In this document: one piece after another, positions 2,197-52,880 of the stretch
How positions within the stretch are numbered: position 1 is the first letter of the stretch
How the letters are laid out: each line of letters starts with the position of its first letter
DNA from: Musa acuminata AAA Group
Taxonomy: Eukaryota; Streptophyta; Magnoliopsida; Zingiberales; Musaceae
Length of the DNA: 64,000 nt
Assembly (NCBI RefSeq): GCF_036884655.1
Contig: NC_088342.1
Location: 29,402,001 to 29,466,000 of the forward strand
Reading direction: 5' to 3'
The notes under the pieces: model-generated
The model's database searches: none
What the model saw: the letters and a program-made list of their open reading frames with translations, nothing else
What the model was told of the DNA's origin: nothing
Translations under genes and position numbers: made by a program

Positions 2197-2208
2197 TGGT
2201 ATCAGAGC
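2197..2208 (+). other. Primer-binding site, initiator tRNA-Met
   Basis: TGGTATCAGAGC lies three bases inside the 5' LTR end, complementary to the 3' end of plant initiator tRNA-Met. It marks the minus-strand priming site. Confidence 0.9.
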
Positions 2209-2246
2209 GAGGTTATCTCTCATATTTGGTTTAATACCCAAGAGAG

Positions 2247-28670: not shown

Positions 28671-29234
28671 TTAATTAATGTTGTTTAACACTTTCTACCT
28701 ATATTTATAGAGAAAATTATAAAATCAAACTAGGTTAAAATTAAAATTGGCATAATTATGTTGAACATATATACGTGATCAACAAAAATTGATGCACATT
28801 ACAAATATTAAGCCGTAAAGGAACATAATATAAAATTGATATAATTATATGACAGGTAGATATTATGTCTAATTGCAGATTTTATCTTCGGACGATATAT
28901 GTTGCATCAAGTTAGTACTTCAATTACATTTTTAATTGCATGTAAACGCATATAAATGTCGTATTTGAGACTAATCATAGCCTATATATCTAACCTTCGA
29001 TCATTTAACTGTACATATAATAAGTAATTCTGCCGAGACTTTATCAAGTCATAATAAAAACCTAAAAAAAAATTTCTTCCATAATTACTTAAAATCCAAA
29101 AAATATAATGTGGGTCCCAACATCAAAATGATTCTCAGTGTGGGCCCCAATTTGGTTCCTACTCAGCAATAGAGATAAGCCTTTGAATCCCTCCCTCACT
29201 CTCACACCTTCGAAGCCAAAACAGCAGCGAGAGG
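28671..29234. other. Upstream region of plastid RPS5
   Basis: AT-rich to about 29100, then the probable promoter and 5' leader. GATAAG at 29174-29179 is an I-box-like core seen in light-responsive genes. I see no clear TATA box. The leader just before the ATG is rich in C and A. These are suggestions only. Confidence 0.35.
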
Positions 29235-29893
29235 ATGGCTTTAGCGACAGCGGCCATCACCGCCGCTCTCTCCTCCCTCTCCCTCCGCCCTCCTCTTCAC
29301 CGCGGCGGCCTCTGCCTCAAGCCCCTCTGTGCCACCCTGCTCCCTTCCTCCTCCTCCTTCCGCGCCCGAACCCTCCCCAAATTGGCCGCCACGGCCGACA
29401 TCGACACCTCCTTCTTCGACAACGTCGACCCCAACGACGACATCCCCTTCGACCCCCCGGCCCCGCCGGAAGGCTACGTTGCCCCACCCTCCTTCGACGA
29501 GCTTCCCCCCGAGTCCGAGGAGGAGGTCGCCGCCGCCTACGAGGAGATCTACGGCGCCGCCTACAGCGGCGAGTCCGTGCTCGGGAACGACATCTACGTC
29601 ATGGACGGAAAGGTCAAGAAATCCAGCGGCCTCCTCGGCCGGAAGAAGCGGGACAGGCCCAACGATGGGTTCGAGGAGCGGGTCGTCCAGGTGAGGAGGG
29701 TCACCAAGGTCGTCAAGGGCGGCAAGAAGCTTTCTTTTCGTGCCATCGTGGTGGTGGGGGACAAGAAGGGGCAGGTTGGCGTCGGGGTCGGGAAGGCCAA
29801 GGAGGTGGTCGACGCTATCGCCAAGTCCGCAGGGAACGCCCGTAGGAACATCGTGTCGGTGCCCATGACCAAATACTTGACCTTCCCTCACAG
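29235..29893 (+). CDS. RPS5: Plastid ribosomal protein uS5 (30S S5), exon 1
   Basis: Codes for residues 1-220 of a 302-residue protein. Residues 1 to about 50 form a Ser/Leu/Arg-rich, acid-poor plastid transit peptide. An acidic linker follows (about 54-120, rich in D, E and P), typical of plant plastid S5. Residues 145-210 are the S5 RNA-binding domain ([40 protein letters not shown]). The exon ends with CAC AG and a donor GTAATCC; the split Arg codon is completed in exon 2. The ATG context GAGGATGGC is good. The protein binds 16S rRNA in the plastid small subunit and helps decoding accuracy. GC content is high, as in many monocot first exons. Confidence 0.95.
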
Positions 29894-30456
29894 GTAATCC
29901 ATCCGTTTCTCTGTCATTTTTCCTTCAAATGCAAAGTTGGGCTCTTGATTCATAAGTTTTTGTTAATGCTTGCTTCAAATCTCTTGTTGTTCTGCTTTCC
30001 CTATAAGATGTTTGTCTTTATGGTTGATTTATTGAGAGGAATCGGAGAAGTTATAAATAAGCTAAATCTTTAGTTTACCGTGATGAAATCATATTTTTTG
30101 CCAATGCCGAAATGTGCTTGATAATTTAGAGTGCAAGTTTCATGGATGCTGATGCTCAGGAATCACACTATTCCTGTGATGAAGAAGTGTTACAATACTC
30201 AATCTGACACATTTTTCAAAACCTAGAGGCCCAGCTCAATGTGGTAGAGGCAGATGATAAGCTGCTTTCTGTTGCATACTTCTGATCACTCCATTAAAAT
30301 GAGTTTTGTATGCTTCAATTATGTATAGTGGTTTATGTGAAACAGATAATATGATATTGGAGTATTGATTTTTCTGTATCCGCCGTCTATTTTCTTTTTT
30401 ATTTCCTCGTAATTGTTTTATTTACCAATTATAACATTTTCCCTTAGTGTGTTCCT

Positions 30457-31786
30457 ATATTCTAAGCTACTAATCTAATTCTATGGTCCCATTCTAATTC
30501 ACCTTTGTACTTTAGGGCACTTGAATTGTAAGATGCCTAATGTCACTGTTGGATGATGATCTAATCCTATAATGAAATTAGTTAAGACTAATGTTAATGA
30601 GATCCGATAAAGTTTTATGTTGGCTATTAATAGCTTAACATGACCCTCATACTCTTTTGGGCTTGGAACTGACATTGAAAACACAAGAGCAAGTTATAAA
30701 GAAATGGAAACTGCTAAAGAATTTTTGTTTGCTCCAAACTAGGATTTTGATTCACCAACATAGATCTCAGACCATAAGAGACCTTTCCCTTTAAGCACCA
30801 ACCTCTAGAGGTCTAGCAAATTACACCATAATTCAGTTGTATGTTTTATGTTGCAATACAAAATCCAGAAAATCCCTAGACTGCTTTTCCAATCAAGAAA
30901 GAAAAATAACATTCACTAAGCCAAGACTTAATGCAGAAGACTTTACAAAGTCAAGACCTAATAGCTAATATACCGCAGTTTAATCCTTCTCATCAATGAA
31001 CTTGGAGGGCTCAGTGCTAGGTCTCAACATCTAATCTAGTGTTTTCCAAAGCACAAGATGCCAAAACGCTCGAGGCAATAGGTGCTTTCCCAAGCGAAAC
31101 GAGACGTTCCCAAATATTAAAATTAAAAATATATATATTATGATTGATAAATATGATTATAAAATAAATATGGCTGGGGGTGAGTGTTGTTATTAGTTAG
31201 TTTGGTTGAGCTAACTATGTGAAATTGGTTGAACTTGAACTCAATTTGATTGGACACATGCCCGAGTCACCCAATGCGTGGGCTCGGGCATGCACCTGAG
31301 TGGTGCCTCCTTCAAATGCCTCGCTCGGCCCTGTTACGAAGTGCTCGGGCTTCGCCTCGCCGAGGGCCTTTTGAAAACACTGATCTAATCAGCACTTTAT
31401 AATGATAATACTCGTCATAATTATCATTCTTATCTTATAGTGATTAGATCTCAATTTGAGGTAGCAATGGGTCTAATTTCAATTGCAATAGGATTTTGCA
31501 ACAATGTCGGGTGATTAAGTTGCATCTAGATAAAGCTCGAAGTGGACCTAATCTGACCAGATTTAAGCCAAAGTTGTCAGACTACTCTTAGAGAGAGATC
31601 TTGATTAAAGGAGAGTTCGTCCTTTAAGAGGAGGTCTAGCCATCCATCGTATGAGGGCTTCCTACCCAAGCCAGGAGAGAGATGAGGCAGCCACCCAACT
31701 CCTACTCCCAACACATGAGGGAGGACACATGTCTCTAACATTCGAAGACTGTAGCTGACTAAGCCTAAAAAAGTCAGCGAGGAGGC
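30457..31786 (+). repeat. Intronic duplicated segment, copy A (left part)
   Basis: From ATATTCTAAGCTACTAATC onward this matches 43461 onward. Its right part continues after the LTR element at about 43170-43312 (GGAGGATAACCGACTATTAG). The two copies share the region around a hAT insertion, with scattered substitutions. Confidence 0.85.
31037..31382 (+). mobile_element. hAT-type non-autonomous element, short copy (346 bp)
   Basis: Terminal repeats TAGTGTTTTC and GAAAACACTG, flanked by a perfect 8-bp target duplication ATCTAATC (31029-31036 and 31383-31390). Eight-bp duplications and CAGTGTTTTC-like ends are the hAT hallmark. No transposase. It is an internally shorter form of the 44039-44973 copy. 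Confidence 0.85.
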
Positions 31787-32233
31787 TATCATGTACTTAG
31801 ATGTTTTTGCCTAAGTCGTGCGGCACCCTTGCGTGTCAGTCCACAAAAGTCAGCCTCTCCTAAACCTCCTACGGTCCCTTAGGACCTACAAAAGAGAAAA
31901 CGGGTTAGAGAAAGAGTCTTACTCGAGATCCACAAGCAATCATTTCAGTAAACACTTCATAGCCAATGCAAATTACAAACATACTTCACAAGTCCTGAAC
32001 GATCGCACAACAAAGGGTCCAAAATGATCCACTATAGACCGAAATCCCCACAAGTGCCCACATGACATAACCTTTGTTTGCAAACCTAGGACGATCACTA
32101 AAATCAAAGAAAATGGGGCTGTTAAGCCTACTGGTAGCCTTTTACATACTATGTAAAGTATGAACAAAACTGAAAGACATGGACATACATGAGCATTACA
32201 TCAAACACCCCGTTTACATTTTTGTCCGTGACA
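31787..32233 (-). repeat. LARD-like LTR 1 (3' LTR of outer element)
   Basis: Plus strand TATCATGTACTTAG ... TTTTGTCCGTGACA. Pairs with 42715-43164 by shared variants such as AATCATTTCAGTAAACACTT. Confidence 0.8.
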
Positions 32234-33570
32234 TTATCCCCCACTTATTCCTTCGACGTCATCGTTGAAGCCTTTGCAGACGCTGCATCTCCTCGCCTTT
32301 GTTGAATCTTCAATCTTTTTCTCCAGTTGCGATGCGCCTCTTGGCTTCAACGACATTTCGCCGCTGTTGTTGAGTAGTCGAACTTTGATATGCCATGTTG
32401 CTTCAACTCGCCCATGACTCTGACTCTGAATCTGGTGTGGGGTCGGTTGAGTTGTGTTGATCCTTGTTGTTTCCTGCGGATCTCTCAGATGAAGGAAAAG
32501 ATCATCCTTAATATGCGTTAGTCTCTTAAATGTCACATGTCGCTTGAACTAGGTGGATGCTTGTTAAAGCTTTAACGAGCATCGCCTCGCAGACTTTAAA
32601 ATTTTTGGTCCTTTGTAAAATTTGTCTATCGATTCTTCTTCCACTTAGTCGTCACTTCCAAGTAGGTTCACATCACTTCCGTTTTTTATTAGCATTTTGT
32701 TGGGAAATGAAGCGGATAATATACTTTCAGTGGCACTGATCACCATTGGTGAGGATTTGACAACTATCGTCTTCCACTAGGTTTCGTCGAACGGTATTTG
32801 AATATGTGTAGAGCTCCTCTGCTGGATAGATAAAAGAATTAGGGTATTCGGTTTCGCCCATTCTCTTAAGAGTTAAGAAGGCAAATGTTACTTGACTTCG
32901 CCTGCCTCCTTGAGGGTTGTACTTCATGCATCGAGCTGGTTACTAGCCTTCGCCCGCTCTTTGCTCACACTTCTGAAGCACTCGAAGTGTTTGCACTCAT
33001 TGCGTTGAGTTAGCTACTGTGATTCACCTTCTCAATGCCATCGAACTTCTGGAATAAAGAAAGTTTTTGCCCCAACTTGGAGTAAGTCTCTAATAGTTTT
33101 GGTCGCCTCTGAGATTGTACCGTCTTCTCCATCATCTTTGCAGCCCACTCCTCTGAGTCGCAAAGGTACAGCACCGTGTACTGCCTACTTCGTTCCTTGG
33201 TTGAGCACTCTTGTATCGACCCGAAGTCCTTCATTTTCGGCTATCTTGATGAGAAACTCATTGACACCACTCTTACGAAGTTCCTTGGCCTCTGTCATTC
33301 AGTCTTGTCTCAGTACTTAGAGTTTGCCTCTGCATTTTCCACCTCATCGGCCCCTTTCACGACCAAGCGCTCTCCCTTCATGAGAACAAGGGATCGATGA
33401 CTTCATTGAAGTCCTGTCTTTGTGGTACCATGGCGTTGCCATGCCCATGGCCCTATTATCTATCGCCTCGCATCTGCGTCTCTTTCTTCGTGGTCGGTAG
33501 ATCTACCTCTGTGGCACTATGACATTCCTCCAAGTCCACCTCCATTCTAACCGATACTTAGTTTTTTTGG

Positions 33571-36150
33571 GTAGCTAAGTCTCTCTGGACTCATCGTCGC
33601 TTCCTCGCCCCTTTCGACCCCCTGCTTCAACACCTTTGTATTCTCAGAACAATTCCCCATGGTTGATGGAAAGGCAGACTGCGACTCCTATGTAGGGCAT
33701 TTACTATCATGTTGTAGGGTTTGCACCGATTCTGTTCTCCTTAGCTTCCTTGGTAGCAACGTTCGCTTACTCGACCTTGTCCTCTGACTTGCCGAGCTCC
33801 CTTAAGCGAATATGAGCTCTGGAGCACTCCAACTCTCCAGCAGCTCCGATCATACCTCTGCATGATCAAGTCCCTCCCATGGGACTCGCTAGTTTTTGGG
33901 TAGCTAAGTCCCTCTGGACTCGTTGTTGTTTCCTCGCCCCTTTCGACCCTCTGTTTCAACACTTTTATGTTCTCCGAGCAGTTCCTCTTGGTCAATGGAA
34001 AGACAGACTGCAACTCCCATGCATGGACTTCGCCATCATGTTGCAGGGTTTGTACCGATTCTGTTCTCCTTAGCTTCCTTGGTAGCAACGTTCGGTTGCA
34101 TGGCTGGTTTTCTTCTGACTTCGCCATCATGTTGCAAGGTTTGTTCGATTATCAAGTTCCCCCATGGGTCTCACTAGTGTTTAGATAGCTAAGTCCCTCT
34201 GGACTCGTCGTCGCTTCCTCGCCCTTTTAGACCTCCTACTTCAAAACCTCTGTGTTCTCCGAGCAGTTCCCCTTGATCGTTGGAAAGACATACTGCAACT
34301 CCCATGCATTGCCTCCGTCATTATATTGTAGGGTTTGCACCGATTCTGTTCTCCTTAGCTTTCTTGGTAGCAACGTTCACTTACTCGACCTTGTCCTCTG
34401 ACTTGCAGGGCTCCCTTAAGCAAATACGAGCTCTGGAACAGTCCAACTCTCCAACCGCTCCGATCATACCTCTACATGATCAAGTCCCTCCCATGAGACT
34501 CACTAGTTTTTGGATAGCTAAGTCCCTCTGGACTCGTCGTTGTTTCCTCGCGCCTTTCGGCCCTCTGCTTCAACACTTTTGTGTTCTCCGAGCAGTTCCT
34601 CTTGGTCGATGGAAAGACATACTGCAACTCCCATGCATGGCCTTCGCCATCATGTTGCAGGGTTTGTACCGATTCTGTTCTCCTTAGCTTCCTTGGTAGC
34701 AACGTTCGGTTACTTGGCCTTGTCCTCTGACTTATCGGACTCCCTTAAGCGAATATGAGCTCTAGAGTAGTTCAACTCTCCAGTCGCTCTGATCATACCT
34801 CTGTATGATCAAGCCCCCCCATAGGACTCACTGGTTTTTGGGTATCTAAGTCCCTCTGAACTTGTCGTCGCTTCCTCGTCCCTTTCGACCTCCTACTTCA
34901 ACACCTCTATGTTCTTCGAGCAGTTACCCTCGATCGATGGAAAGATAGACCGCAACTCCCATGCATGGCCTTCACTATCATGTTGTAGGGTCTGCACCGA
35001 TTATGTTATCCTTAGCTTTCTTGGTAGCAACGTTCACTTACTCGACCTTGTCCTCTTACTTGTCGGGCTCTCTTAAGCGAATGCGAGCTCTGGAGCAATC
35101 CAACTCTCCAACCGCTCCGATCATACCTCTGCATGATCAAGTCCCTCCCATAGGACTCACTAGTTTTTGGGTAGCTAAGTCCCTCTGGACTCGACGTTGT
35201 TTTCTCGCCCCTTTTGACCCCTTGCTTCAACACTTTTGTGTTCTTCGAGCAGTTCCTCTTAGTCGATGGAAAGACAGACTGCAACTCCCATACATGGCCT
35301 TCACCATCATGTTGCAGGGTTTGTACCGATTCTGTTCTCCTTAGCTTCCTTAGTAGCAACGTTCGGCTACTTGGTCTTGTCCTTTGACTTGCCAGGCTCC
35401 CTTAAGCGAATATGAGCTCTAGAGCAGTTCAACTCTCCAACCGCTTTGATCATACCTCTGTATGATCAAGCCCCCCCATAGGACTCACTGGTTTTTGGGT
35501 ATCTAAGTCCCTTTGAACTTGTCGTTACTTCCTCGCCCCTTTCGACCTCCTGCTTCAACACTTCTGTGTTCTTCGAGCAGTTACCCTTGATCGATGAAAA
35601 GATAGACTGCAACTCCTATGCATGGCCTCCGCTATCATATTGTAGGGTTTGCACCGATTCTATTCTCCTTAGCTTCCTTGGTAGCAATATTCGCTTACTC
35701 AACATTGTCCTCTAACTTACCGGGCTCCCTTAAGTGAATATAAGCTCTGGAGTAGTCCAACTCTCTAGCCGCTCCGATCATACCTCTGCATGATCAAGTC
35801 CCCCCATGGGACTCACTGGTTTTTGGGTAGCTAAGTCCCTCTGGACTCGTCGTTGTTTTCTCGCCCCTTTCGACCCCTTACTTCAACACCTTTGTGTTCT
35901 CCGTGCAGTTCCCCTTGGTCGATGGAAAGATAGACTACAACTCCCATACATGGCCTCTACCATCGTGTTTGTTGGGTTTGAACCGATTCTGTTCTCCTTA
36001 GCTTTCTTGGTAGCAACGTTCGCTTACTCGGCCTTGTCCTCTGACTTGTCGGGCTCCCTTAAGCGAATATGAGCTCTGGAATAGTCCAACTCTCCAACCG
36101 CTCTGATCATACTTTTGTATGATTAAGTCCCCCTATGGGACTCACTGGTT
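33571..36150. repeat. Tandem array, eight units of about 328 bp
   Basis: Units start at the conserved GTAGCTAAGTCCCTCTGGACTC-like site near 33571, 33900, 34184, 34513, 34842, 35171, 35499 and 35827; the second is short (about 330 less 45 bp). Units at 34842 and 35499 share variants (GTATCTAAG, GAACTTGTCG) absent from their neighbours, so a two-unit block seems to have been copied. The sibling element has a single unit (39031 to about 39351). The unit length is not a multiple of three and no frame stays open across units, so it is not a coding repeat. Confidence 0.85.
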
Positions 36151-37315
36151 CTTGCATTCGAAATTCTCCCTCGGTGGTACATAACCCCTATATGCTGATG
36201 ACTAAGGCTTTTATCCGATGCAAAATTCGATGCACGCACAGAAGATCCGCCTCTTCGATACCATGACATTCACTCTTTGAATCCATAGCCTTTCTTGCCG
36301 TCGTGTTGTTCACCGAAGTCGAGCTCCCAATAGCTCCAGATCATACCTCCGTATGATATAGTCCCTCGCGGAACTAGTTTCTTGTGTATCGCAATGCCAT
36401 GAGCTATTCCATTATGATCGCTGCACCATGTCGACAACTGTTGACATTTTCATTGCATTCTGATCATTGTGAAATGAATTCGGATAGCGATCCCTCCATG
36501 TATGACCTTTGCCAACACATCATAGGGCCTCTTCCATCTTCGATTGTGTTTGCTCCACTGGCAATCGACCTTCATCCACTCGCTCTCGGGTCACACCCAA
36601 ACGAAGCACAGCTCTAGGATAGTCCATTGCATGGTAGCTCCTGAAGTCCACCGACTTCGCTGAAATTGGTGCACCATTATTTGGATCCTAGGCCTTTAGC
36701 CCCACCAGCATAATCTCCACTACACACCGCTTCCTTCATGAAAACTTGAATAGCAGCACTATGACATATTCTTCAAGAGTACATACCTCCGTGTCCTCTT
36801 ACCCCGTGCCAAGGCCTTTTGAACCCAACTTCACCTCCGTAAGTTGAGTCGTCTTAGTTCCTCCGTTAAATGCTTCTCCAAGATAAGGTGCATGTGCTTT
36901 GAAGCTTCCTTCGTCTTTGGCACCATGCAGGATGAGTTCGCTCCATCAAAATGAGGGATCCATAGAACAATATGATCCTGCTCTTGCCTCTACAAGAGTT
37001 CATGTCCTGGATCTCTGTCTAAGTAAAACTTCATGCCTCCGCTCTATGTTTCATCTTCTGTGCCAACTCCCTTTATGTGGCTTGGGTCCTTTACCAAGTT
37101 ACACCCAAGTTGCTCCGCTCCTCGATTTGCATTAAGTTGATAGTGGCCCTCGTGCCCACCATTCCACGGGTCAACCCTTTGTTGAGTCCGATTTATATAT
37201 CGGCTCCAAGAGTGCCTTCATTTATGTCGTTTTGGGTCGCTTCCCCACTTGATCTCGTAATGCCTCCCCCAATGCATTATCTCAAGCGAGATCATGCGAC
37301 GACTCCTCGCCGTAA

Positions 37316-37762
37316 TGTCACGGACTTAGCTGTTTTTGCCTAAGTCGTGTGGCACCCTTGCGTGTCCGTCTGTAAAGGTCAGCCTCCCTGAAACCTCCCA
37401 TGGTCCCTTAGGACCTACAAAAGAGAAAACGGGTTAGAGAAAGCGCCTCACTCGGGATCCACAAGCAAACATTTTCGAAAACACTTCATAATCAATGCAA
37501 ATTACAAACACACTTTACAAGCTCTGAATGGTTGCACAACAAAGGGTCAAAATGGTCCACTACAGACCGAATATCTCTCACAAGTGTTCACATGACACAA
37601 CTTTTATTTACAAGCCTAAGAAGGCCACCAAATCCAACTAAAATGGGGCTGTTAAGCCTTCGACCGTCCCTCTACATGCTGTGCAAAGCATGAACAAACC
37701 AAAAGACATGGACATACATAAGCATTACATCAAACATCATGTTTAGAATTTTGTCTTTGACA
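37316..37762 (-). repeat. LARD-like LTR 2 (3' LTR of nested sibling)
   Basis: TGTCACGGACTTAG ... TTTGTCTTTGACA on the plus strand. Complementary ends TGTCACGG and CCGTGACA are best seen in its partner at 41398. Confidence 0.85.
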
Positions 37763-40700
37763 TTCTCCCCCACTTATTCCTTCGACGTCCTCGTCGAAGC
37801 CTTTGCCGACACTGCAACTCCTCGCCTTTGTTGAGTCTTCAATCTTCTTCTTCAATCTTCTGCTTCAACTGGAATGCACCTCTTGGCTCCTAGCTGCTCT
37901 CTACTGCTGTTGTTAAGTAGTCGAACTTTTGATCCCTGTTAGTTTCTACGGGTCCATCAGATGAAGGAAAAGACAATCCTTACTATGCGTCAGTCTCTCA
38001 AATGTCTCATGCTGCTTGAACTGGGTGGATGCTTGTTGGAGCTTTAACGAGCATCGCCTCGCAAACTTCTGAAGTTTTGGGTCCTTGCTCCACAAAATTT
38101 TCCCATCGACTCTTCTTTCATTTAGTTGTCACTTTCAAGTAGATTCGCATCACTTCCGCTTTCGATTGACATTTTATTAGGAAATGAAGCGGATAATCTA
38201 CTCTCAGTAGCACTGATCACCATTGGTCAGGATTTGACAACTATTGTCTTCCATTATCTTCGAAGGGTCTTTGAACTTGTGCAGAGCTTCTCTGCTGGAT
38301 AGATAAGAGAATTGGGGTACTCAGTTTCGCCCATTCTCTTAAGAGTTGAGAAGACAATGGTTACTTGACTTCGCCCACCTCCTCAAGGGTTGTACTCCAT
38401 GCATCGAGCTGGTTACTGACCTTCGCCTGCTCTTTGCTTACATTTCTGAAGCACTCAAAGTGTTTGCACTCCTTGCATTGAGTTAGCTATTGTGATTCAC
38501 CTTCTCAATGCCATCGAACTTCTGGAATGCAGGAAGTTTTCACCCCAACTTGGAGTAAGTCTCTAATAGTTTTGGTCGCCTCTGAGATTGTACCGTCTTC
38601 TCCATTAACCCTGTCGCCTACTCCACTAAGTAGCAAAGGTATAGCACCGCGTACTGCCTGCTTCGTTCCTTGGTCGTGCACTCTTGCACGACCCGAAGTC
38701 CTACACTTTCGGCTATCTTGATGAGAAGCTCGTTAACACCGGTCTCACGAAGTTCCTTGGTCTTTGCCCTTCAACCTTGTCTCGGTACTTGGAGTTTGCC
38801 TTTGCATGCTCCACCTCCTCGGTCTCTTTCACGACCAAGCACTCTCCCTCCATGAGAGTAAGGGATCAATGACTTTCACAGAAGTCCCACCTCTGCGGTA
38901 CCATGGTGCTGCCATGCCCATGGCTCTATTATTCGTCGCCTCGCATCTGCATCCCTTTTCTTCACAATCAGTAGATGTCGTTATGGCACTCCTCCAAGTT
39001 CACCTCCATTCTAACTGATGCTTGATTTTGGATAGCTAAGTCCCTCTGGACTCGTTGTCGCTTCCTCGCCCCTTTTGACCTCCTGTTTTAACACCTCTAT
39101 GTTCTCCAAGTAGCTCCCTTTGGTCGATGGAAAGGCAGACTGCGACTCCTATGTAGGGCCTTTACCATCATGTTGTAGGGTTTGCACCGATTATGTTCTC
39201 CTTAGCTTCCTTGGTAGCAACGTTCGCTTACTCGACCTTGTCCTCCGACTTGCCGTGCTCCCTTAAGCGAATATGAGCTCTGGAGCAGTCCAACTCTCCA
39301 GCTGCTTCGATATGCCTCTGCATGATCAAGTCCCTCCCATGGGACTCACTGGTACTTGCATTCGAATATTCCCTCGATGGTACACAGCCCCCATATTCTG
39401 ATGTGCAAGGCTTCTATCCGATGCAAAATTCGATGCACGCACGGAAAACCCGCCTCTGCGATACCATGACCTTCACTCCTTGAATCCATAGCCCTTCTTG
39501 CCGTCGTGTTGTTTCACCGAAGTGGAGCTCCTAGTAGCTCTCGATCATACCTCCGTATGACATAGTCCCTCACGGGGCTACAATTTGTGTGTATCGAATT
39601 GCCACGAACTATTCCACCACGATCCGCTGCACCATGTCGCCTCCTGGTGACATCTCTATTGCATTCTGATCATTGTGGGATGAACTCGGATTGCGATCTC
39701 TTCATATGTGACCTCTGCCAACATATCGTAGGGCCTCTTCCACTTTTGATTGTGTTCGCTCCTTTGGTAATCGACCTTCATCCACCCGCTCTTAGGTCAC
39801 ACTTAGATGAAGCACCGCTTTAGGACAGTCCGTCGCTTAGTAGCTCCCGAAGTCCACCGACTTCGTTGAAAATGGTGCACCATTGTTTGGATCTTGGGCC
39901 TCTGCACCTACCAACACAATCTCCGCTGCGCACCGCTTCCTTTATGGCAACTTGAATGGCAACACTATGGCATATTCTTCAAGAGTACTTGCCATCGCGT
40001 CCTCTTGCCCCATGCCAAGGCCTTCTGAACTCAACTTTGCCTCCGTAAGTTGAGTCGTCTTAGTTCCTCCATCAAATGCTTCTCCGAGATAAGGTGCATG
40101 TGCCCAGAAGCTCCCTCAGTCTTTGGCACCATGCAAGATAAGTATGCTCCATCAGAGTGAAAGACCCATTAAACGACATGATCCCGCTCTTACCTTTGCA
40201 AGAGTTCATGTCCTTGACCTCTGTCCAAGGAAAGCTCTGTGCCTTCGCTCCATGTTCCATCTTTTATGCTGGCTCCCTTCATGCTGCTTGGGTACTTCGC
40301 CAAGTTACACCCAAGGTGCTCCGCTCCTCGTTTTGCATTAAGTTGATGGTGGCCCTCGCACCCACCATTCTACGGGTCAGCCCTCCATTGAGTTCGATCT
40401 CTATATCGACTCCAAGTGTGCCTTCATTTGTGTTGTTTTGGGTCGCTCCCCCACTTGATCTCGCATGTATCCACCAATGTATTATCTCAAGCGAGATCAT
40501 GCGATGACTCCTCGCCGCTCACTCGGTCCATTGAGCTTCGTGGAGTTGTTGTTTTTGAGGTACTCCTCCTCAACATGTACGGTCTGTTGCACATGATTCT
40601 CCTTCTAGAAAGCCGAGACTTATCCCTCCTGGATATCTATCCCATTGGAGCAATATCTCTCTTCGTTTCCTTCTCTCTAAAAGTTTCGGAGACCACCATC

Positions 40701-41397
40701 CCCTTGGACTACTCCGATTTGCTGAACAAACTGTACATTGTTTTGCCTCCTACAAACGCACTTGCTAGATTGTGACTCCACGTCAATACAGTCCCCGTTA
40801 CACCACTCAAGGCCTAGCAATGTGCTAAACTCGTTGCACACTTTAGCCTCCTACGGATATATCGTTCGCATGTCGAAGAGAAAGTTTCAATGCTCTATGG
40901 GATCGAGTTTCGGTCACCTTGGGATGGCCACGAACATTCCATCGTCTGCATATAAGCCCTTGTATGAGTACCAAATTTTTCGAGTTAGCAATTCCCCTCA
41001 CCTTTGTGAGCTTTGCATAACTCTTTCGGTCGCTGAGCAACCCATTCCATATTGTATGGTCTCATCCTTTACCAAGCGCCTCGCTTGCCTTGAGCACCAT
41101 CAAGTATTTTTGTCAAGTCGAGCCGTAGCTCGAACTCAGCCATCCCAACCTTTGTGCGCTACGCATTCTTCCAAGCTTACTTGTTCTCGTGGTGCCTCTT
41201 GCGCGAAGGGTTGGTCATTCCTCTGAGTGCCAATCTCAGATGTCCGCTCATTTGAGCGACTCATTTTCCCTACATCTCCATGCTCGTTTTCCCCCAAACG
41301 GTCGCGTGTGCTGGCTGCACTCAACGCAGCCTCACTAGGTCCCCCACGTTTGCATGCCAAGTGTTTTTATGAGTGTTTTTCCCGCTCTAATACCATC

Positions 41398-41838
41398 TGT
41401 CACGGACTTAGTTGATTTTGCCTAAGTCGTGCGGTACCCTTGCGTGTCCGTCTGCAAAGGTCAACCTCCTCGAAACCTCCTATGGTCCCTTAGGACCTAC
41501 AAAAGAGAAAACGAGTTAGAGAAAGCGCGTTACTCGGGATCCACAAGCAAACATTTTCGAAAACACTTCATAATCAATGCAAATTACAAACACACTTTAC
41601 AAGCTCTGAATGGTTGCACAACAAAGGGTCAAAATGGTCCACTACAGACCGAATATCTCTCACAAGTGTCCATATTACACAACCTTTATTTACAAGCCAA
41701 GAAGGCCACCCAACTAAAATGGGGATGTTAAGCCTTCGATCGTCCCTCTATATGTTGTGCAAAGCATGAACAAACGAAAAGACACGGACATACATAAGCA
41801 TTACATCAAACATCTTGTTTAGAATTTTGTCCGTGACA
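41398..41838 (-). repeat. LARD-like LTR 3 (5' LTR of nested sibling)
   Basis: TGTCACGGACTTAG ... TTTGTCCGTGACA with perfect 8-bp inverted ends. The minus strand continues into TGGTATTAGAGCGGG, the primer-binding site, at about 41382-41396. Confidence 0.85.
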
Positions 41839-42714
41839 GCTCGCTCGGTTCGTTGAGCTTTGTTGAGTTGTTGTTTTGAGGTACTTCTCAATATATGCGG
41901 TCTGTTACAGATGATTCTCCATCTGGAGAACCATGACTAATCCCTCCAAGGTATCTATCACGTTAGAGCAACTTTTCTCTTCGCATCCTTCCCTTTGAAA
42001 GTTTCGGAGACCACCATCCCCTTGGACTACTCCACCTTCCTGAACAAACTATGCATTGTTCTGCCCTCGCAAACGCACTTGCTAGATTGTGACTCCACGT
42101 CAATATAACCCCCGCTGCACCCCTCAAGGCCTAGCAACATGCTGAACTCGCTACACACTTCAGCCTTCTACGGACATATCCTTCTCATGTCGAAGAAAAA
42201 GTTTTAATGCTTTATGGCACCGAGTTTCGGTCACCTTGGGATGGCGACGAACATATCATCGTCCGCATAAAGCCCTTCCATGAGTATCGAATTTTTCGAG
42301 TTACCAATTCCCCTCACCTCTGTGAGCTTTGCACAATTCTTTTGGTCGCTAAACAATCTATTCCATCTTGCATGGTCTCATCCTTTACCAAGCGCCTCGC
42401 TTGCCTTAAGCACCATCAAGTATGGTTTTCAACATTCAGCCGTAGCTCGAACTCAGCTATCCCAACCTTTGTGCGCTACGCATTCTTCCAAGCTTGCTTG
42501 TCCTCGTGGTGCCTTTTGCACGAAGGGTTGGCCATTCCTTTGAATGTCAATCTCAAATGCCTGCTCCTTTGAGCGACTCCTTTTCCCTACATCTCTATGC
42601 CCGTTTTCCCCCAAACGGTCACGCATGCTGGCTGCCCTCAACGCAGCCCTACTAGGTCCCCCACGTTTGCATGCCAAGTGTTTCTATGAGTGCTTGTCCC
42701 GCTTTGATACCGTA

Positions 42715-43164
42715 TATCACGCACTTTGTTGTTTTTGCCTAAGTCGTGCGGCACCCTTGCGTGTCCGTCCGCAAATGTCAGCCTCCCCGAAACCTCCTAT
42801 GGTCTCTTAGGACCTACAAAAGAGAAAACGGGTTGGAGAAAGCGTCTCACTCGGGATCCACAAGTAATCATTTCAGTAAACACTTTATAGCCAATGCAAA
42901 TTACAAACATACTTCATAAGCTCTGAACGGTCGCACAACAAAGGGTTCAAAATGATGGTCCACTACAGACCGAAATCCCCACAAGTACCCACATGACACA
43001 ATCTTTGTTTGCAAGCCTAGGACGACCACCAAAACCAAAGAAAATGGGGTTACTAAGCCTACTATTAGCCCTTTACGTGTTGTGTACAGCATGAACAAAA
43101 CCGAAAGACATGGACATACATGAGCATTACATCAAATACCCCGTTTACAGTTTTGTCCGTGACA
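42715..43164 (-). repeat. LARD-like LTR 4 (5' LTR of outer element)
   Basis: TATCACGCACTTTG ... TTTTGTCCGTGACA. About 91% like LTR 1 by eye, so the outer copy is older than the nested one. Confidence 0.8.
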
Positions 43165-43460
43165 AGGCGTTGGTCGGAGGATAACCGACTATTAGTCCCA
43201 CACCCCTTGGAACATGAGAGAGGCAGAAAGTCCATAAATGAAGACTATTATAAGCTTATAAGATACTATGACTTGATCACAGCTTGACTTATCAATGCTG
43301 TCCACTCTATAAGTCCTTATCAATACTACCCTCTCTTCTATTCCCTTGTTTCTTTTCTCTGTCCTTATGAAAGAAAGAAGACCTTCAGTAGGTGGCATGA
43401 GATCTTATCATTAACTGTGTTGCCATCATGGACATGAATGATCTTTGTCTTCTTTGTTGG

Positions 43461-45517
43461 ATATTCTAAGCTACTAATCTAATTCTGTGGTCCCATTCTA
43501 ATTCACCTTTGTACTTTGGGGCACTTGAATTGTAAGATGCCTAGTGTCACTGTTGGATGATGATGTAATCCTATAATGAAATTAGTTAAGACTAATGCTA
43601 ATGAGATCCAATAAAGTTTTATGTTGGCTATTAATAGCTTAACATGACCCTCATACTCTTTGGGGCTTGGAACTGACATTGAAAACACTAGCAAGTTATA
43701 AAGAAATGGAAACTGCTAAAGAATTTTTGTTTTCTCCAAACTAGGATTTTCATTCACCAACATAGATCTCAGACCATAAAAGACCTTTCCCTTTAAGCAC
43801 CAACCTCTAGAGGTCTAGCAAATTACACGATAATTCAGTTGTATGTTGTATGTTGCAATACAAAATCCAGAAAATCCCTAGACTGCTTTTCCAATCAAGA
43901 AAGAAAAAGAACATTAGCTAAGCCAAGACTTAATGCAGAAGACTTTACAAAGTCAAGACCTAATAGCTAATATACCACAGTTTAATCCTTCTCATCAATG
44001 AACTTGGAGGGCTCAGTGCTAGGTCTCAACATCTAATCTAGTGTTTTCAAAACCACAAGGTGCCAAGGTGCCAAAACACTCGAGGCGCTAGGCGCTCACC
44101 CGAGCGAAACGAGATATTCCAAAATATTAAAATTTTAAAAAATATTATGATTGATAAATATGATCATAAAAATAAAAATAACACATCAAACTGCAATCAT
44201 ATAAAGTACCAAGTTACATTGCAGGAAATAAAAGCAGATATCAAAGTTGTGATGTTCTTACCTAACAGTATATTATGTTCTAACCCCTAACAGTGTACTT
44301 ACCTCAAGCTGATGTTGGAAATTTAACAAAGTGCAGGAAATACAAATAGGAAATAGGAGATCATTAAAGGTGTAGGAAAGAGATCATTTAACAAAGCTGT
44401 TGTTACCTACAAACTGAGAAAGAAGAGATGGAGAAGTAACTGGCAGAGGAAGGTGGTGGTTAGGGCGGAGGATAGTGGCAATCGACGGAGGAAGGTGGTG
44501 GTTAGGGTGGAGGATAGTGGTAAGGCAAAACGAAGCTGGTCAATGATGTAAGCTCACATGTCGGAGAAACAAAGATTCAAAGATGGCATAATGTGGGGGA
44601 TGCTTGTGGTTCAACAACCTAGGGCGGAGGAGGCTCGCGGCCTAGTGGCGTAGAGTAGAGGAAGCTCTAGCGGCATAGGGCAAAGGAAGCTCGCAATCTG
44701 GTGGTGAAGGGTAGAGGCATCTCACGGTAGGCTTTTTGATTCCTTACATTTGGTCGGGAGGGAGGGCTAGGGGTGAGTGCTGTGATTTGTTGGTTTGGTT
44801 GAGCCAACTATGTGAAATTGGTTGAACCTGAACTCAATTTGATCAGACACACACCTGAGTCACCCAACGCTTGGGCTCAGGCACGTGCCTGAGTGGTGCC
44901 TCCTTCAAATGCCTCGCCCGGCCCTGTTACGAGGCGCTCGAGCTTCGCCTCGCTGTGCCTTTCGAAAACACTGATCTAATCAGCACTTTATAATGATAAT
45001 ACTCGTCTTAATTATTATTCTTATCTTATAATGATCAGATCTGAATTTGAGGCAGCAATTGGTCCAATTTCAATTGCAGTAGGATTTTGCAACAACATCC
45101 TTTCTAGTTGGGTGATTAAGTTGCATCTAGATTAAGCTTGAAGTTGACCTAATCAGACCAGATTTAAGCCAAAGTTGCCAGACTACTCTCAAAGAGAGAT
45201 CCTGATCAAAGGAGCGTTCGTCCTTTGAGAGGAGGTCTAGCCAACCATCCTACAAGGGCTTCCTACCCAAACCAGGAGAGAGATGGCACGGCCACCCTGC
45301 CCCTACTCCCAAAACAGGAGGGAGGACTCATGTCTCTTGCCTTGGAAGACTAGCTAACCAAGCCTAATAAAAGTCAGCCAGGAGGATAAGCGACTATTTG
45401 TCCCACACCCCTTAGGAACATGAGAGAGGTAGAAAGTCCATAAATGATGACCGTTATATGCTTATAAGATATTACGACTTGATCACAGCTTGAGTTATCA
45501 ATGCTGTCCACTCTATA
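43461..45517 (+). repeat. Intronic duplicated segment, copy B
   Basis: About 2057 bp matching 30457-31786 plus 43170-43312. It lacks the LTR element and keeps the undisturbed site AGTCAGCCAGGAGGATAAGCG near 45373-45393. The 148 bp between copies (43313-43460) are single copy. Confidence 0.85.
44039..44973 (+). mobile_element. hAT-type non-autonomous element, long copy (935 bp)
   Basis: Same ends (TAGTGTTTTC, GAAAACACTG) and the same 8-bp target duplication ATCTAATC (44031-44038, 44974-44981) as the copy at 31037. It has about 590 bp more in the middle (about 44175-44765). No transposase frame. Confidence 0.85.
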
Positions 45518-45886
45518 GTATATTGTTTTTGTGGTAAGTGAATGCCTGCTTGCTTTTTTAAATAATTTCAGTATCCGATTATCTGGTACGTAAACATTTG
45601 AGTACACGAAACAGTTGATTTTCTCTTGCATTGAACCCATCGATGAAACTAGTGAACTGACAGTCTTGCTTCTAGCATGAGATTCGAGAGTTATTTCTTT
45701 GAAAGGCGCAGAATATTGTAACCTGAAGAGTCATCAAGCTAGTATATTCTGCCAGAAGTTAGATGGGATTAACTGTAACCATACACTTTACTGCTTACTA
45801 TGATATCTTGGTTCATATGCCTTGTCTTTTGGCCAATAATCCAGTAGCCATAGATCTGATTACTATCTCTTTCCAATCCTCTATAG

Positions 45887-46136
45887 ATGTGATGGAGATT
45901 ATGGAGCAGCAAAAGTCATGCTGAGACCTGCTTCACCTGGTACTGGTGTCATTGCTGGTGGAGCTGTCAGGATTGTGTTGGAGATGGCTGGTGTAGAGAA
46001 TGCTCTGGGGAAGCAACTAGGGAGTAAAAATGCCCTTAACAATGCAAGAGCAACTGTTGCCGCTGTCCAGAGGATGAGGCAGTTCCGAGATGTCGCTCGT
46101 GAGCGTGGAATCCCAATGGAAGAATTGTGGCAGTGA
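45887..46136 (+). CDS. RPS5: Plastid ribosomal protein uS5, exon 2
   Basis: Residues 221-302, preceded by the acceptor TCTATAG. It holds the C-terminal S5 domain: [46 protein letters not shown] and the end [12 protein letters not shown]. Exons of 659 and 250 nt join to 909 nt without a stop. The C-terminal domain contacts uS4 and uS8 at the back of the small subunit. The exon stays clean despite the repeat-laden intron, as expected for an essential gene. Confidence 0.95.
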
Positions 46137-46699
46137 ACCAAACCCAAAGGCTGTTTCTGCTAAATCTGTTTGACAGTTCTGTTGACTCTTTTCATTTGGA
46201 AAAAAATTGCAAAATTTACCCTTATCTACGATTTCCATATGTTTGCACCCCCAACTTATATCAATCATCTCCGACAGGATCCTTATTTTTCACTGCAGGA
46301 TATTTGTGTTTTTTTTTTTTTGAAAGATAAATGAGAAAGACAGGATATAAGTCCAATACCTTGCGATGTACCGCAGGATACTTGTGTTGGTTATGGTGTA
46401 TGCAGAAGCAAATCAGCCAATATTCTCAAAAGCCTTCATTTCTGGTTAGATCAGTTTGGGGCATTTTGTCGGTAGCATTATATGAATGTTGATCTTTGTG
46501 GTAGACACATGGAAAGGAAATTAATACTGCAAATTACTAAGCTGCATAAGCCTCGATGATTGTGCCGATGATGTACTGTTTAAATTCAGCACAATTGAAA
46601 AAATAGATGATAAATATGAATAGCTTTTTTGGTAAGTGGTGCATTGCTATATGTCGACCCAAGTAAGTAAGTAGTTGAGACATTATAGCTTGTTTTTAA

Positions 46700-48296: not shown

Positions 48297-49798
48297 GTAT
48301 ACTATGCCCTCAGGTCACCGGTAACATCTCTATGTCGTAAGCAAGATAGCGAATCACGATATAGGTGAGTCTCGAGGGACTTGACCAACTCAACCTACAC
48401 TAGGAATCGGTTCCTACTTATAACGATGGAAGACCACATGGGTCAATCTAATTGCCTCACGTTTACCGACTTAATATTATCGAGAGATGGTTCTATGATT
48501 TGGTCTCCTAATATGACATGTCACACATATACATATTTAATATATATCTACATTGCATGCAAATATATATACATATCTAGTATGTGTATAAGCAATCATA
48601 CCAGATGATAATGAACCACAACCTAATATGATTAGGCCCGAGCCAGTAGGTCTAATTACTTACATCAAGATCTATGTGTGCAACGGTGCATCTTCATGCC
48701 CTGTGATCGTCCATCTCGTCCTCGTCGGTTCTGTCGATATCTTGATGCATTTTCATGCATCACGATCGTCCGTCTCATGGGTCCTGCTACCGCATCCACA
48801 CTCCCGCTGCGCCTCCTCATGTGATTACAACTTAATCATAGGCACGCAGGCCCGACAATAAACGAGAAATATAATGGAGGCTCGCAGACCTAAATAATAA
48901 TAATCACAAGTACACATATCACACGGTCCATGATCATCCGTCCACACATCATACATCACATGTATAAATAATCATCATCATGTAGGACTACTAGATAATA
49001 ATAAAAATAATAATCAACTAAACCTTTTAATTAATTAATATTTTCTGAAATCAGAGACATGTAGGAAATTTCTGAATTTATAGGGGTATTTTCGTAATTT
49101 AGACAAAAGACAGAAGCTGGAATTTCTCAAATTTCGAGGGACAAAACTGTCTTTTGCCCAGAAAACCCTAATGCCCTACTACCCTTTGCTGCTGCCGCCG
49201 CCGCCACCCTGCTGGCGGCGGCCTGTGCGGCGAGGGGCGGGGCGCTGCCGCTGCAGGTGGGCGACCCCGCGGGCGTCGCCGCCTCCGCGGGCAGTTCTGC
49301 CGGCGGGGCAACGCCCGCAGGCGGTGCTGCCCCTGCAGGTTGGCGCCCCAGCGGGCGCCGCCGCCTCCGCGGGCGGTTCTGCCCGCGAGGCAGCGCCCGC
49401 AGGCGGTGCTGCCTCGCTGGCGGCCGCCCCTGCGGGGTTTTTGCCCGTGGGAGCAGCGGCCACAGGCGCCGCTGCCCTGCGGTGCCTCAGCCCGCGCTGC
49501 TGCCCCGCGGCGCCTCTGCCCGCGGGCTCAGCGGCCGCAGGCGCCTCTACCCGCGGGCTGCCAGCCCCGCCGGCCGGCTGCTGCAGCCACAGCGCTTGCG
49601 CATGCGCCGGCGCTGTGCTGCCTGGCTGCGGCTGCGGCTGCCGCTGCAGGTAGCTGCAGGCATGCAGATCGAGGGCAGCAACTGTTGCTGCCCTTCCTCG
49701 CTTTTGCGTCAATGATTTTGACATCAAAATTCTTCCTAAACACAACACACGCAGTTCAAAACCAATCATTCACACGAACAACCTGGCTCTGATACCAC
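48297..49798 (-). other. Distal U3 of copy 1 and short internal region with GC-rich core
   Basis: About 48297-49100 is AT-rich. About 49150-49680 is very GC-rich and built of imperfect 84-88-bp repeats with GCCGCCGCCTCCGCGGGC motifs. It opens Ala/Gly/Pro-rich frames on both strands, which reflects composition rather than coding. On the minus strand a PBS (TGGTATCAGAGCC, 49785-49797) follows the LTR at 49799. Confidence 0.6.
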
Positions 49799-51240
49799 TG
49801 TTGGGAAATCTTGGGGATGACATCACATGCGCAGCGGAAGAACAAAAAAATAAAATCTCCGATTCCCAAAAAGATGTTCGTCATCGTGCGAAGATCGGTG
49901 CGCAAAATCCACGAAACTTAAAACTGCGTATAGAGTAGGTTGTGTTACCTAGGGAGATCGTATATCCCTGTTTCCTTGCAGATCCTTAGGAGAGGGTGAA
50001 GGAGGTCAAGCGTCCTCCTCTCTAGCGGTGATCCACACACACAGCAGGGTTGCGACAACGCGCCAGGCCTACTATGAGGTGGAGAGGAAGAGGAGAATAG
50101 AAAAGGCAAGTAAAGGCTCTAGCCTATGAGGCTCTAAATCCCTCCTATTTATAGAGATCCCTTGTCAAACCCTAATGGGTCCGCCCTTAGTGGGTATTGG
50201 ATCTGCATCGAATAAGATAAGGGCTCCATCGGATATCTCATATCTGAACCTCTACTCATCGCAATGCCTACCATATGTGTGTGACCCTCTAGGCCCAATA
50301 TCGAGCTGGCCGTGAGTCATACCCGTCAGAACTCCTTCTAACTCAGTGAATTATTATCTCTGTAATAATTCACTTGACTCATCGACTACGGACGTACTAG
50401 GCCACTACGCCGTAGTCCCTAGACGATACAGGGGAATCCAATCCATTGGACCTGTTTGTCCTCAGTTACCGTGTACCTATAGTCCCTCATCCATCTAATA
50501 TCCCAGAGATCGTATATCGAGCATGGTGTTGTCAGACCCATACGGTTTCTGCTCGAGTCTCGCTCTAATCGGATTCTCCCGGAGAATTCTTTCTCTCTCA
50601 ACCCGAATGACCCTAGTCAGGGATTTGTCTGAGCGAGAACATATGAGATATTCCTCTCATGATGCCGAGAGTGGATGATCCTCTATCGACACTCAATAGC
50701 CCTCGTAAGGTCGACTACCACTCCCAATGACCAGTTGTACTAGATCTGGGACAGCCAAACCTATAAGTCTGGTATCAAAGAGTGGAACACTCATATAGGA
50801 CATCCTTTGTGTCTCAAGTCTAAGAACCAGATACACCACTAGGACTACGGAATCGCTGTTTGACAATAAGGCATCATCAACCATCCAGCATTCCATAAGC
50901 GGATCAATTAGTGAACTCATTCTCCAATGAGCACCTGTATCCCTAGTGTCCCTACACGAGCAGCTATGAGACCAACTGCATCCATCATATGAACGGGTAT
51001 ACAGCACACCAGTCTATCCGGTTATCACGATGTCCCTCTCGAGTAACCTATGACCGGGATTATTTAGGATATGTGTTTAAAGGTGAATCGATCTCATTAT
51101 TGTGATCTCATCACGATCCGATTCCCATTGCACAAATCCAAGGACATCACAATATATATATGCACATATGCAATAGTTATAAAGTGATATACGCCAAAAT
51201 ATAATAAGCAAAAAGATTCTATATCAAGTCACACGTGCCA
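49799..51240 (-). repeat. Non-coding LTR, copy 2 (5' LTR in minus orientation)
   Basis: Plus-strand start TGTTGGGAAATCTTGGGG, directly after the minus-strand PBS. TATA box on the minus strand at 50147-50154. 49799-50656 matches copy 1; 50657-51240 (CTCATGATGCCGAGAGTGG onward) does not. The outer edge near 51240 is set by where copia protease homology resumes. Confidence 0.65.
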
Positions 51241-51255
51241 TCACTCACGTGATTG

Positions 51256-52880
51256 GCTTGTTGGGCACCTATGACTAGCAATATCTATTTAAAGACCAAC
51301 CTTGGCTGCAAGTTGGTGCTTGAGGATATGAGGCATATGATTGACTTGAGGCTGAATTTAATTTTAGTTGAAAAAATAGATGATGAAGACTATGATAGCA
51401 TATTTTACAAAGGGCAATGGAAGTTTAGTAAGGATTCTCTTGTTATAATTAGTAGAAAGAAATGTCATACTTTGTACAGGTTGCAAGCTAAAGCTTATGA
51501 TGAGTAGTTAAATGTTACAGAGAAAGACTTCAACATGGAGTTATGGCTATGATGAGCAGTTAAATGTTACAGAGAAAGACTTCAACATGGAGTTATGGCA
51601 TAGGCGACTGGGACACATGAGCGAGAAGGGGCTGCAAACTCTTTCCAAGAGAGAGATATTGCCAGACCTCAGAGGTATACATTTAAACCCTTGTATTGAT
51701 TGTTTGGCTGGTAAACAACATAGAGTTTCATTTACTAATCCTGCTTTGTCTAGAAAAATGCATAACTTAGATCGTGTTTATACAAATGTATATGATCCTT
51801 TGAGGACAAAAACTCATGGTTGATTTGTTGATATTTCCGGTATAAGTGGTGCACTTTATTTTGTCACTTTTATAAATGATTTTTCTAGGAAAGTTTGGGC
51901 CTATGCTTTGAAGATCAAGTGATTAATGTACTCAAAGAGTTTCATGCCAGGGTTGAAAGAAAGATAAAAAAAGGCAATTGAAATGCATAAGATCAGATAA
52001 TGGTGGTGAGTACACAGGATTATTTGATGATTATTGCAGGTCACAAGGGATCCAACATGAGATGATAGTTCTTGGTACACCTCAACATAATGCAATTACA
52101 GAGAGGTTAAATCGCACCATCATGAAAAATATAAGATATATGCTTTCATAGGCCAAGCTACCCAAAAGGTTTTGGGATAAGGCTTTAAAGACTGCAATTG
52201 ATGTGATCAACTTGTCGCCATGTATAACTCTAGATAGTGATGTTGCAGAGCATGTATGGTCAGGGAAAGATGTTTCTTACAGGCATTTGAGAGTGTTTGG
52301 TTGTCGTGCATTTGAATATGTTCGATACAATAAGAGGTCCAAACTAGATAATAAGACTAAAGAATATATTTTTCTTGATTACTCACATGATCAGTTTGGT
52401 TACATGCTTTGGAATCCAGAAAAGCAGAAGGTGTTCAAAAGCAGAGATGTAGTTTTCTTTGAGGATCAAACCTTTGAAGATTTGAAGAAAAAGACACCGA
52501 CCAAGACTTCTACAGAAGGATTAGCAGATTGTGACCCAATTACTCCTCCAGTATATCAGGGTGATGAGAGAGATATGCAAAAAGATGGTATAGAGCTTGA
52601 TGTTGATCTGCCTACAGGACATGTTGAGTAAGAAGAAGTTGGAGAGCAACTTCCCATAGAATCTCAGTTGATAAGATCTTCTAGACAACGTCAACCTTCC
52701 AGAAGATACTCTACAGATGAGTATGTGATGCTTACTGATACAAGTGAACCAGAAAGTTACCAGGAACGAGTTGAAAGTGAGTAGAAAAAGAACCAGTTGC
52801 AGCTTTAGAAAATTCACACAGATGACAACGAAGCAGACATGTTGACAAAGACCTTACCAAAAGAAAGACAGGAGATATAT
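51256..52880 (+). pseudogene. Tork II pol remnant (protease end, integrase)
   Basis: Homology to NIYLKTNLGCKLVLEDMRHM (end of protease), [20 protein letters not shown] (pre-integrase), CIDCLAGKQHRVSF, SALYFVTF with FSRKVWAYA, then VFGCRAFEYV and FFEDQTFEDL. After about 52790 the frame jumps to KIHTDDNEADMLTKTLPKER, the C-terminal end of RNase H, so RT is lost. A 52-bp tandem duplication at 51496-51599 adds a stop and repeats DFNMEL. Confidence 0.75.

Follow-up and report, generated by a model that had tools for sequence, protein, structure and literature searches.

Introduction

How can the reading frame of a plastid ribosomal protein gene be kept intact across an intron of 16 kb that consists mostly of transposons? 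This question is raised by a 64-kb stretch of DNA from contig NC_088342.1 ("the window", 64,000 nucleotides in full; contig C16 in the following), one of 1060 contigs in a 1.53-Gb assembly. The window carries a gene for the plastid ribosomal protein uS5 (RPS5/SCA1), whose coding region is interrupted once, and the single intron comprises duplicated, transposon-free and transposon-filled stretches within one transcription unit. Such a locus can, thus, be used to examine what governs the local mutation rate, transcription or chromatin. We consider it likely that the gene is the only intact one for plastid uS5 detected in the assembly, that its intron was enlarged by transposons, is transcribed through and spliced normally, and that the island of long terminal repeat (LTR) retrotransposons inside it is heterochromatic within an active gene. 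More tentatively, and somewhat short of even confidence, we propose that the island, lying in one intron of a probably essential gene, forms a mutation-rate domain of its own with edges within ~50 bp of transposon borders, that chromatin state and not transcription sets the rate there, and that the copy with the bloated intron was kept while a copy with a short intron decayed.

The uS5 gene and its intron

The coding sequence (CDS) is composed of two exons on the plus strand. The coding part of exon 1 (29235–29893) specifies residues 1–219 and two bases of codon 220, and that of exon 2 (45887–46136) the S5 C-terminal region up to the TGA; joined in frame, they yield 909 nt, i.e., 302 amino acids plus stop. 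The intron (29894–45886, plus strand) measures 15,993 bp, 79% of which is transposon-derived, and has GT-AG borders, with the donor CACAG/GTAATC at 29893 and the acceptor TATAG/ATGTGATGG opening exon 2 at 45887. Upon comparison of the joined product with the chloroplast S5 of spinach (PDB 4v61), residues 10–302 are aligned, gap-free at the junction. The top three of the 120 matches listed from the protein database are full-length Musa proteins of 302 amino acids—from a Musa hybrid cultivar, from M. balbisiana (at a locus named Mb05) and from M. textilis—all of them gene models, not reads. With the S5 region in one frame and full-length similarity to a solved chloroplast S5, the gene can be assigned to plastid uS5. 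An earlier note on this DNA had stated that the two exons join perfectly across an intron of 15,993 bp made mostly of LTR elements, hAT copies and a duplication; this description proved exact to the base, and all of the named components are present.

The intron is long when judged against a single average, namely the intron length of 2,816 bp tabulated, possibly per gene, for Ensete glaucum (PMC9055855). A Ds element inserted into exon 2 of the Arabidopsis gene is described as embryo-lethal, with weaker alleles being viable (PMC4629159). The literature matches listed include no title on the plastid uS5 gene in Musa. Based on the intact frame, the splice sites and the conservation of the protein, transcription most likely runs through the whole gene, with the intron being spliced normally.

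Three haplotypes and a paralogue with a short intron

The uS5 gene is found on contigs C5, C16 and C27 ("chr5" set), and a paralogue on C6, C17 and C28 ("chr6" set). The spacing of the contigs by 11, together with the Musa protein matches, points to three sets of 11 chromosomes, and the assembly looks like that of a triploid banana resolved into three haplotypes. For comparison, a published Cavendish assembly is reported to comprise 33 pseudo-chromosomes in three haploid sets, with 1.42 Gb in total (PMC10493638). The CDS of the chr5 gene is intact in all three haplotypes, with one residue differing. The intron measures 15,993 bp in C16, 15,998 bp in C5 and 15,996 bp in C27, and over ~19.8 kb the identity to the window amounts to 98.9% for C5 and 98.8% for C27.

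Paralogues were sought with a protein query in six frames of the assembly, all 31 candidates being scored. The 26 matches obtained comprise six rows of the chr5 gene, five rows of the chr6 copy and 15 rows at 32–35% identity, which presumably represent further genes of the S5 type, e.g., the cytosolic one; an intronless plastid-type uS5 copy was not found in this six-frame search. The chr6 paralogue has its intron at the same position, with a length of ~3.5–3.6 kb in C28 and C17. In all three haplotypes, however, the frame opened by its original ATG does not match that of the protein body and runs into a stop: the lengths of exon 1 are 651, 640 and 643, where division by 3 must leave a remainder of 2. 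The body frame is, again in all three, without a Met ahead of the protein body, and a 5-nt gap in the start region of exon 1 is common to the three copies. Furthermore, exon 2 is lost from C6, with 136 of the 546 bp of the region left. The underlying deletion in this one of the three haplotypes covers ~470 bp, corresponding to positions 5586–6056 of the C28 stretch used for comparison, and takes out the whole exon.

Substitutions in the paralogue were counted as well. C28 and C17 differ by 11 nonsynonymous and 3 synonymous changes, which is to be expected in the absence of constraint; for C6, where exon 1 alone can be compared, the counts are 5 to 2 against C28 and 6 to 2 against C17. The ratio of nonsynonymous to synonymous divergence (dN/dS) between the chr5 gene and C28 or C17 is 0.19–0.20. 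With Canna and Zingiber as outgroups, 21 private residues are counted in C28 against 5 in the chr5 protein (p = 0.0025) and 22 in C17 against 5 (p = 0.0015). Of the 36 differences between chr5 and C28, 15 lie at sites where the chr5 residue is conserved in at least 90% of the 120 listed homologues and the chr6 residue occurs in fewer than 2%, bearing in mind that these homologues are the best matches to the chr5 protein and, hence, lean towards it. With the start frame disrupted, near-invariant residues changed and exon 2 deleted in one haplotype, the chr6 paralogue is broken in all three, which leaves the long-intron copy as the one intact gene for plastid uS5 detected in the assembly. The intact shorter copy elsewhere that the earlier note had named beforehand as speaking against its view did, thus, not turn up in the six-frame search.

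Build-up of the intron

Both ends of the intron are ancestral and have segments in common with the intron of the chr6 paralogue at about 67–70% identity. The 5′ part (29894–30456, plus strand), which contains such segments at about 67–69%, is free of single-nucleotide polymorphisms in 563 aligned columns. It is followed by a tandemly duplicated stretch of ~1.5 kb, likewise on the plus strand. Unit 1 (30457–31786) continues at 43165–43311 beyond an LTR insertion, and unit 2 (43461–45517) has an empty site where unit 1 has the LTR element. Each unit holds a hAT-like element without assigned strand: copy 1 (31037–31382) is 346 bp long and internally shorter than copy 2 (44039–44973) with its 935 bp. 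Both are flanked by the same 8-bp target duplication, ATCTAATC, and the ends TAGTGTTTTC and GAAAACACTG are complementary in nine of ten positions. The 8-bp target duplication and the inverted ends mark both copies as hAT-like transposons. Because the target duplication is the same on both copies, the hAT insertion is placed first and the duplication second. A different partition, according to which the intron is one big element with LTRs of 1.3–1.9 kb (30457–31788 versus 43461–45388), was rejected; the repeat runs past the LTR element (43176–43311 equals 45381–45517), which argues for a tandem duplication and not for giant LTRs.

The outer LTR retrotransposon (31787–43164; LTRs at 31787–32233 and 42715–43164) sits in duplication unit 1 only. 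Nested in it is an inner element of the same family (37316–41838; LTRs at 37316–37762 and 41398–41838). The LTRs pair best according to this nesting, with Kimura two-parameter (K2P) distances of 0.110 for the outer and 0.059 for the inner pair versus 0.18–0.21 for the cross pairs. In both elements, letters resembling a primer binding site (PBS; TGGTATTAGAGC in the inner copy), presumably a match to initiator-Met tRNA, are found at the right end, and the left end has a purine tract; both are, hence, minus-strand elements that run antisense to the gene. The LTR ends are TG..CA in the inner copy, and the outer left LTR starts with TA today. Paired LTRs with such ends, PBS-like letters and a polypurine tract together mark the elements as LTR retrotransposons. 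The letters flanking the outer and inner elements contain no clear pair for a 5-bp target duplication. A 329-bp tandem unit on the minus strand is present in ~8 copies inside the outer element (33564–36154) and in one copy in the inner element.

Among the 25 open reading frames (ORFs) of at least 85 amino acids overlapping the LTR island, ten were sent to Pfam, and none had a match (E 0.1). The family is abundant, with 6,683 first-look places; of these, the best 40 were scored, all being at least 90% identical to the queried LTR, and 34 of them lie outside the locus, the other 6 representing the same locus in three haplotypes. Non-autonomous LTR retrotransposons without coding capacity are referred to as LARD-like. 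The elements described here resemble them in their LTRs, PBS-like letters, purine tract and lack of Pfam matches in the ten tested ORFs, whereas the outer copy differs by its ~8-unit array of the 329-bp repeat. The motif AATAAA is found once on the gene strand of the island and four times on the opposite strand, too few for a conclusion. No meaning is attributed to the antisense orientation, since no strong orientation bias of intragenic transposons is described in the rice study (PMC7145194).

The nesting, the target duplication common to both hAT copies and the empty site in unit 2 would place the hAT-like insertion first in the growth of the intron, followed by the ~1.5-kb tandem duplication, the antisense LTR retrotransposon and, finally, a second copy of its family nested in the first. 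At 4.5 × 10^-9 per site per year, a rate used for synonymous sites (PMC11754795), the LTR distances correspond to ~12 My (million years) for the outer and ~6.6 My for the inner element; both ages would be lower if the clock ran faster in the island. The splits from M. balbisiana and M. textilis are dated to 4.4 and 7.8 million years ago (PMC11754795), and the outer LTR element is predicted to be shared with M. balbisiana, provided that the clock in the island is not much faster. Although the duplication must be older than the outer LTR element, divergence in its first part (0.0295) is lower than that between the outer LTRs (0.110). This requires either gene conversion or a clock running slower outside the island by a factor of at least 3.7, whereas for the later duplicated parts (0.121 and 0.078) no such clock difference, or a smaller one, is needed.

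Divergence at the transposon borders

The three haplotypes differ at 155 of 11,376 columns in the LTR elements (1.36%) versus 9 of 3,332 (0.27%) in the transposon-free intron, a count that excludes both hAT copies (Fisher p = 2.7 × 10^-9); the LTR elements have, thus, changed roughly fivefold faster. When hAT copy 2 is included, the rest of the intron has 11 variable columns in 4,276 (p = 1.6 × 10^-11 versus the LTR island), and the CDS has one in 909. The 2-kb flanks, with 26/1,999 and 40/1,992 variable columns, are jointly not different from the island (p = 0.19). The contrast is found both on the C16 branch (109/11,376 versus 6/3,332, p = 4.9 × 10^-7) and between C5 and C27 (46/11,376 versus 3/3,332, p = 0.003). 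In the chr6 copies, no dip in divergence is seen at the broken gene.

A segmentation blind to the annotation was run over 26–49 kb of the window, and its five-segment fit has breaks at 28,700, 31,050, 43,150 and 46,600. The second of these lies close to the start of hAT copy 1 (31,037) and the third close to the LTR end (43,164). A first slow zone (28700–31050; 0.17% variable columns) comprises the promoter side, exon 1 and the transposon-free 5′ intron; the fast zone (31050–43150; 1.38%) comprises hAT copy 1 and the LTR island; and a second slow zone (43150–46600; 0.20%), recovered in three- and five-segment fits alike, comprises the remaining intron together with exon 2 and the sequence immediately 3′. 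To the right of the island, the rate drops at once. On its left side, 9 of 346 columns vary in hAT copy 1 at a distance of 404 bp from the LTRs, in contrast to 2 of 935 in hAT copy 2 in the slow zone (p = 0.0002). Being a transposon is, therefore, not enough; what counts, on the left side at least, is nearness to the LTR island. Between hAT copy 1 and the island, the 404 bp that are free of transposons (31383–31786) contain three variable columns and are 88.9% identical to their duplicate, compared with 97.1% for the part before the hAT copy; possibly, the fast zone spreads across them.

Mutation spectrum and the question of silencing

In the LTR elements, transitions are more frequent at CHG sites (H being A, C or T; 37/674) than at CHH sites (57/3,809; p = 5.5 × 10^-9), and those at CG sites (30/948) also exceed the CHH value (p = 0.0016). 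Judged from the spectrum, this excess is compatible with CHG methylation of the LTR elements. In the island, divergence runs at the flank rate and its spectrum is biased towards CHG, and the transposon-free intron to either side stays at a low rate; the island is, thus, most likely heterochromatin within an active gene. The low rate outside of it may result from repair or from the chromatin of transcribed DNA, and a complex of the IBM2/EDM2 type may prevent premature polyadenylation in the island. Synonyms of IBM2 are ASI1 and SG1.

Several observations weigh against this interpretation. The divergence data come from one locus in three haplotypes, two of which are close, and the Bayesian information criterion slightly favours three segments, with breaks at 43,150 and 46,600 only, over five (2989.6 versus 2991.2; null 3017.3). 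Transversions are higher in the LTR island, too (31/11,376 versus 1/4,276 in the rest of the intron including hAT copy 2), so that methylation alone does not explain the contrast. CpG has an observed/expected ratio of 0.75 in the island and of 0.38 elsewhere in the intron; the loss of CpG that long methylation would entail is, thus, absent from the island, albeit such a loss is not a defining feature of heterochromatic introns as these are described in the rice study (PMC7145194). CHG transitions exceed those at CG (p = 0.02), which simple deamination would not predict, and in the outer LTR pair CG transitions (5/38) are not above CHH (25/147). As regards the paralogue, the 14 private residues of C6 against 5 of chr5, counted in exon 1 only, are not significant (p = 0.06).

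Because of the raised transversions, the predominance of CHG over CG, the lacking CG excess in the outer LTRs and the undepleted CpG, a regional difference in mutation or repair explains more than deamination alone; such a difference agrees with the stratigraphy of the duplication versus the outer LTRs. The proposal of the earlier note that the intron probably needs silencing without a block to transcription stands in part. It gains indirectly from the divergence step at the transposon borders and from the CHG and CG transition excess in the LTR elements, and it loses from the fact that the step is not specific to methylatable sites and that CpG is not depleted in the elements.

Alternative explanations

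Purifying selection on regulatory intron sequence could keep the transposon-free intron alike, with the LTR island being simply neutral and in no need of silencing or of an elevated mutation rate. The segments of the 5′ and 3′ intron parts that still align to the chr6 paralogue at about 67–70% fit this explanation, as does the equality of LTR and flank rates, which is as for neutral DNA. However, the slow zone includes duplication unit 2 and the 935-bp hAT copy (2/935), which are hard to see as constrained, hAT copy 1 beside the LTRs has 9/346 (p = 0.0002), and the CHG bias would be left unexplained. We, thus, hold selection of this kind to be unlikely.

Gene conversion between the duplication units and between the haplotypes might likewise homogenise the transposon-free parts, and the higher identity of the units before the hAT copies (97.1%) than after them (88.9%) is what it would produce. 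We give it little credence, given that the exons and the unduplicated intron ends are equally poor in variable columns and that the breaks coincide with transposon borders.

It is just as improbable, in our view, that the intron is a mere burden, i.e., that most transcripts terminate or are polyadenylated inside it, leaving the gene weakly expressed and with little controlled silencing. The risk is a real one, considering that in rice and Arabidopsis ibm2 mutants some transcripts are reported to end early in heterochromatic introns (PMC7145194); against it stand the CDS that is intact in all three haplotypes with one variable column in 909, the broken state of the only paralogue found, and the reported embryo lethality of the exon 2 insertion in the Arabidopsis gene (PMC4629159).

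That the transposon block is an assembly artefact is hardly credible and a misassembly of the intron, named beforehand in the earlier note as a way in which its view could fail, very unlikely, for although a repeat family with thousands of first-look places is hard to assemble, the intron has the same structure in three haplotype contigs with lengths within 5 bp, so that the error would need to have happened three times alike, and the C5–C27 share of differences relative to C16 is alike in island and flanks.

Relation to known systems

Heterochromatin inside a transcribed gene is of a kind already described in rice and Arabidopsis. According to the rice study, heterochromatic introns occur in ~11% of gene models; they are longer, evolve faster and are in most cases associated with transposons and repeats, and some of them undergo premature polyadenylation once OsIBM2 is lost (PMC7145194). 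The Musa intron shares with these IBM2/EDM2-dependent introns its length, its transposons and its fast evolution in a gene that is kept functional. It contains transposons or repeats (79%), and substitution in the LTR elements is faster than in other intron sequence (155/11,376 versus 9/3,332), a test not identical to that of the rice paper, in which introns were compared with repeats excluded. The slow hAT copy 2 would fit the observation that short intronic transposons are often hypomethylated (PMC7145194). There are differences, too. The state in rice and Arabidopsis was measured by bisulfite sequencing, H3K9me2 and mutants, whereas the Musa locus is known from sequence divergence only. Rice genes with heterochromatic introns are reported to be less constrained (KA/KS, the nonsynonymous to synonymous ratio, of 0.473 versus 0.384; PMC7145194), unlike the Musa uS5 gene, which is constrained and for which no intact backup was found in the assembly. 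In intron 7 of Arabidopsis IBM1, heterochromatin likewise resides within the intron of a needed gene; the island there goes back to an organelle-genome insertion and not to LTR elements (PMC7145194). Three points are unusual at the Musa locus: the gene is constrained, no intact backup was found in the assembly, and the fast zone has sharp edges within a single intron.

Monroe et al. reportedly described reduced mutation in plant gene bodies in 2022. For Arabidopsis gene bodies, a mutation frequency 58% lower than in nearby intergenic DNA is given (PMC8810380). The Musa locus is alike in its lower rate within the transcription unit than in the flanks, but the drop is interrupted inside one gene at the transposon island, and the measure is haplotype divergence instead of new mutations. 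The locus, thus, fits both the heterochromatic introns of rice and the reduced mutation of gene bodies. It looks like an exception insofar as a gene whose disruption is embryo-lethal in Arabidopsis, with no intact second copy found in the assembly, has a 16-kb transposon-filled intron. If silencing were lost, e.g., in tissue culture, plastid translation in banana might in principle be affected.

Other features of the window

Around the gene, there seem to be structural differences between the haplotypes: window positions 1–10326 and 49818–51547 have no match of more than 1,500 bp at more than 95% identity in 70 kb from C5 and from C27. Neither RNA families at gathering scores nor tRNAs were detected in the window. 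Two adjoining long ORFs of 525 and 1012 amino acids (2235–6851) look to us like a rather complete Copia-type element, and two further adjoining ORFs of 337 and 623 amino acids (60835–63720) presumably belong to another one. A minus-strand ORF of 152 amino acids (12161–12619) is taken to be a piece of a pyruvate kinase gene, and an ORF of 241 amino acids (55608–56333) presumably encodes an OVATE-family protein. The stretch 49084–49792 is very GC-rich and contains an 82-bp tandem repeat as well as four overlapping ORFs of 189–206 amino acids on both strands.

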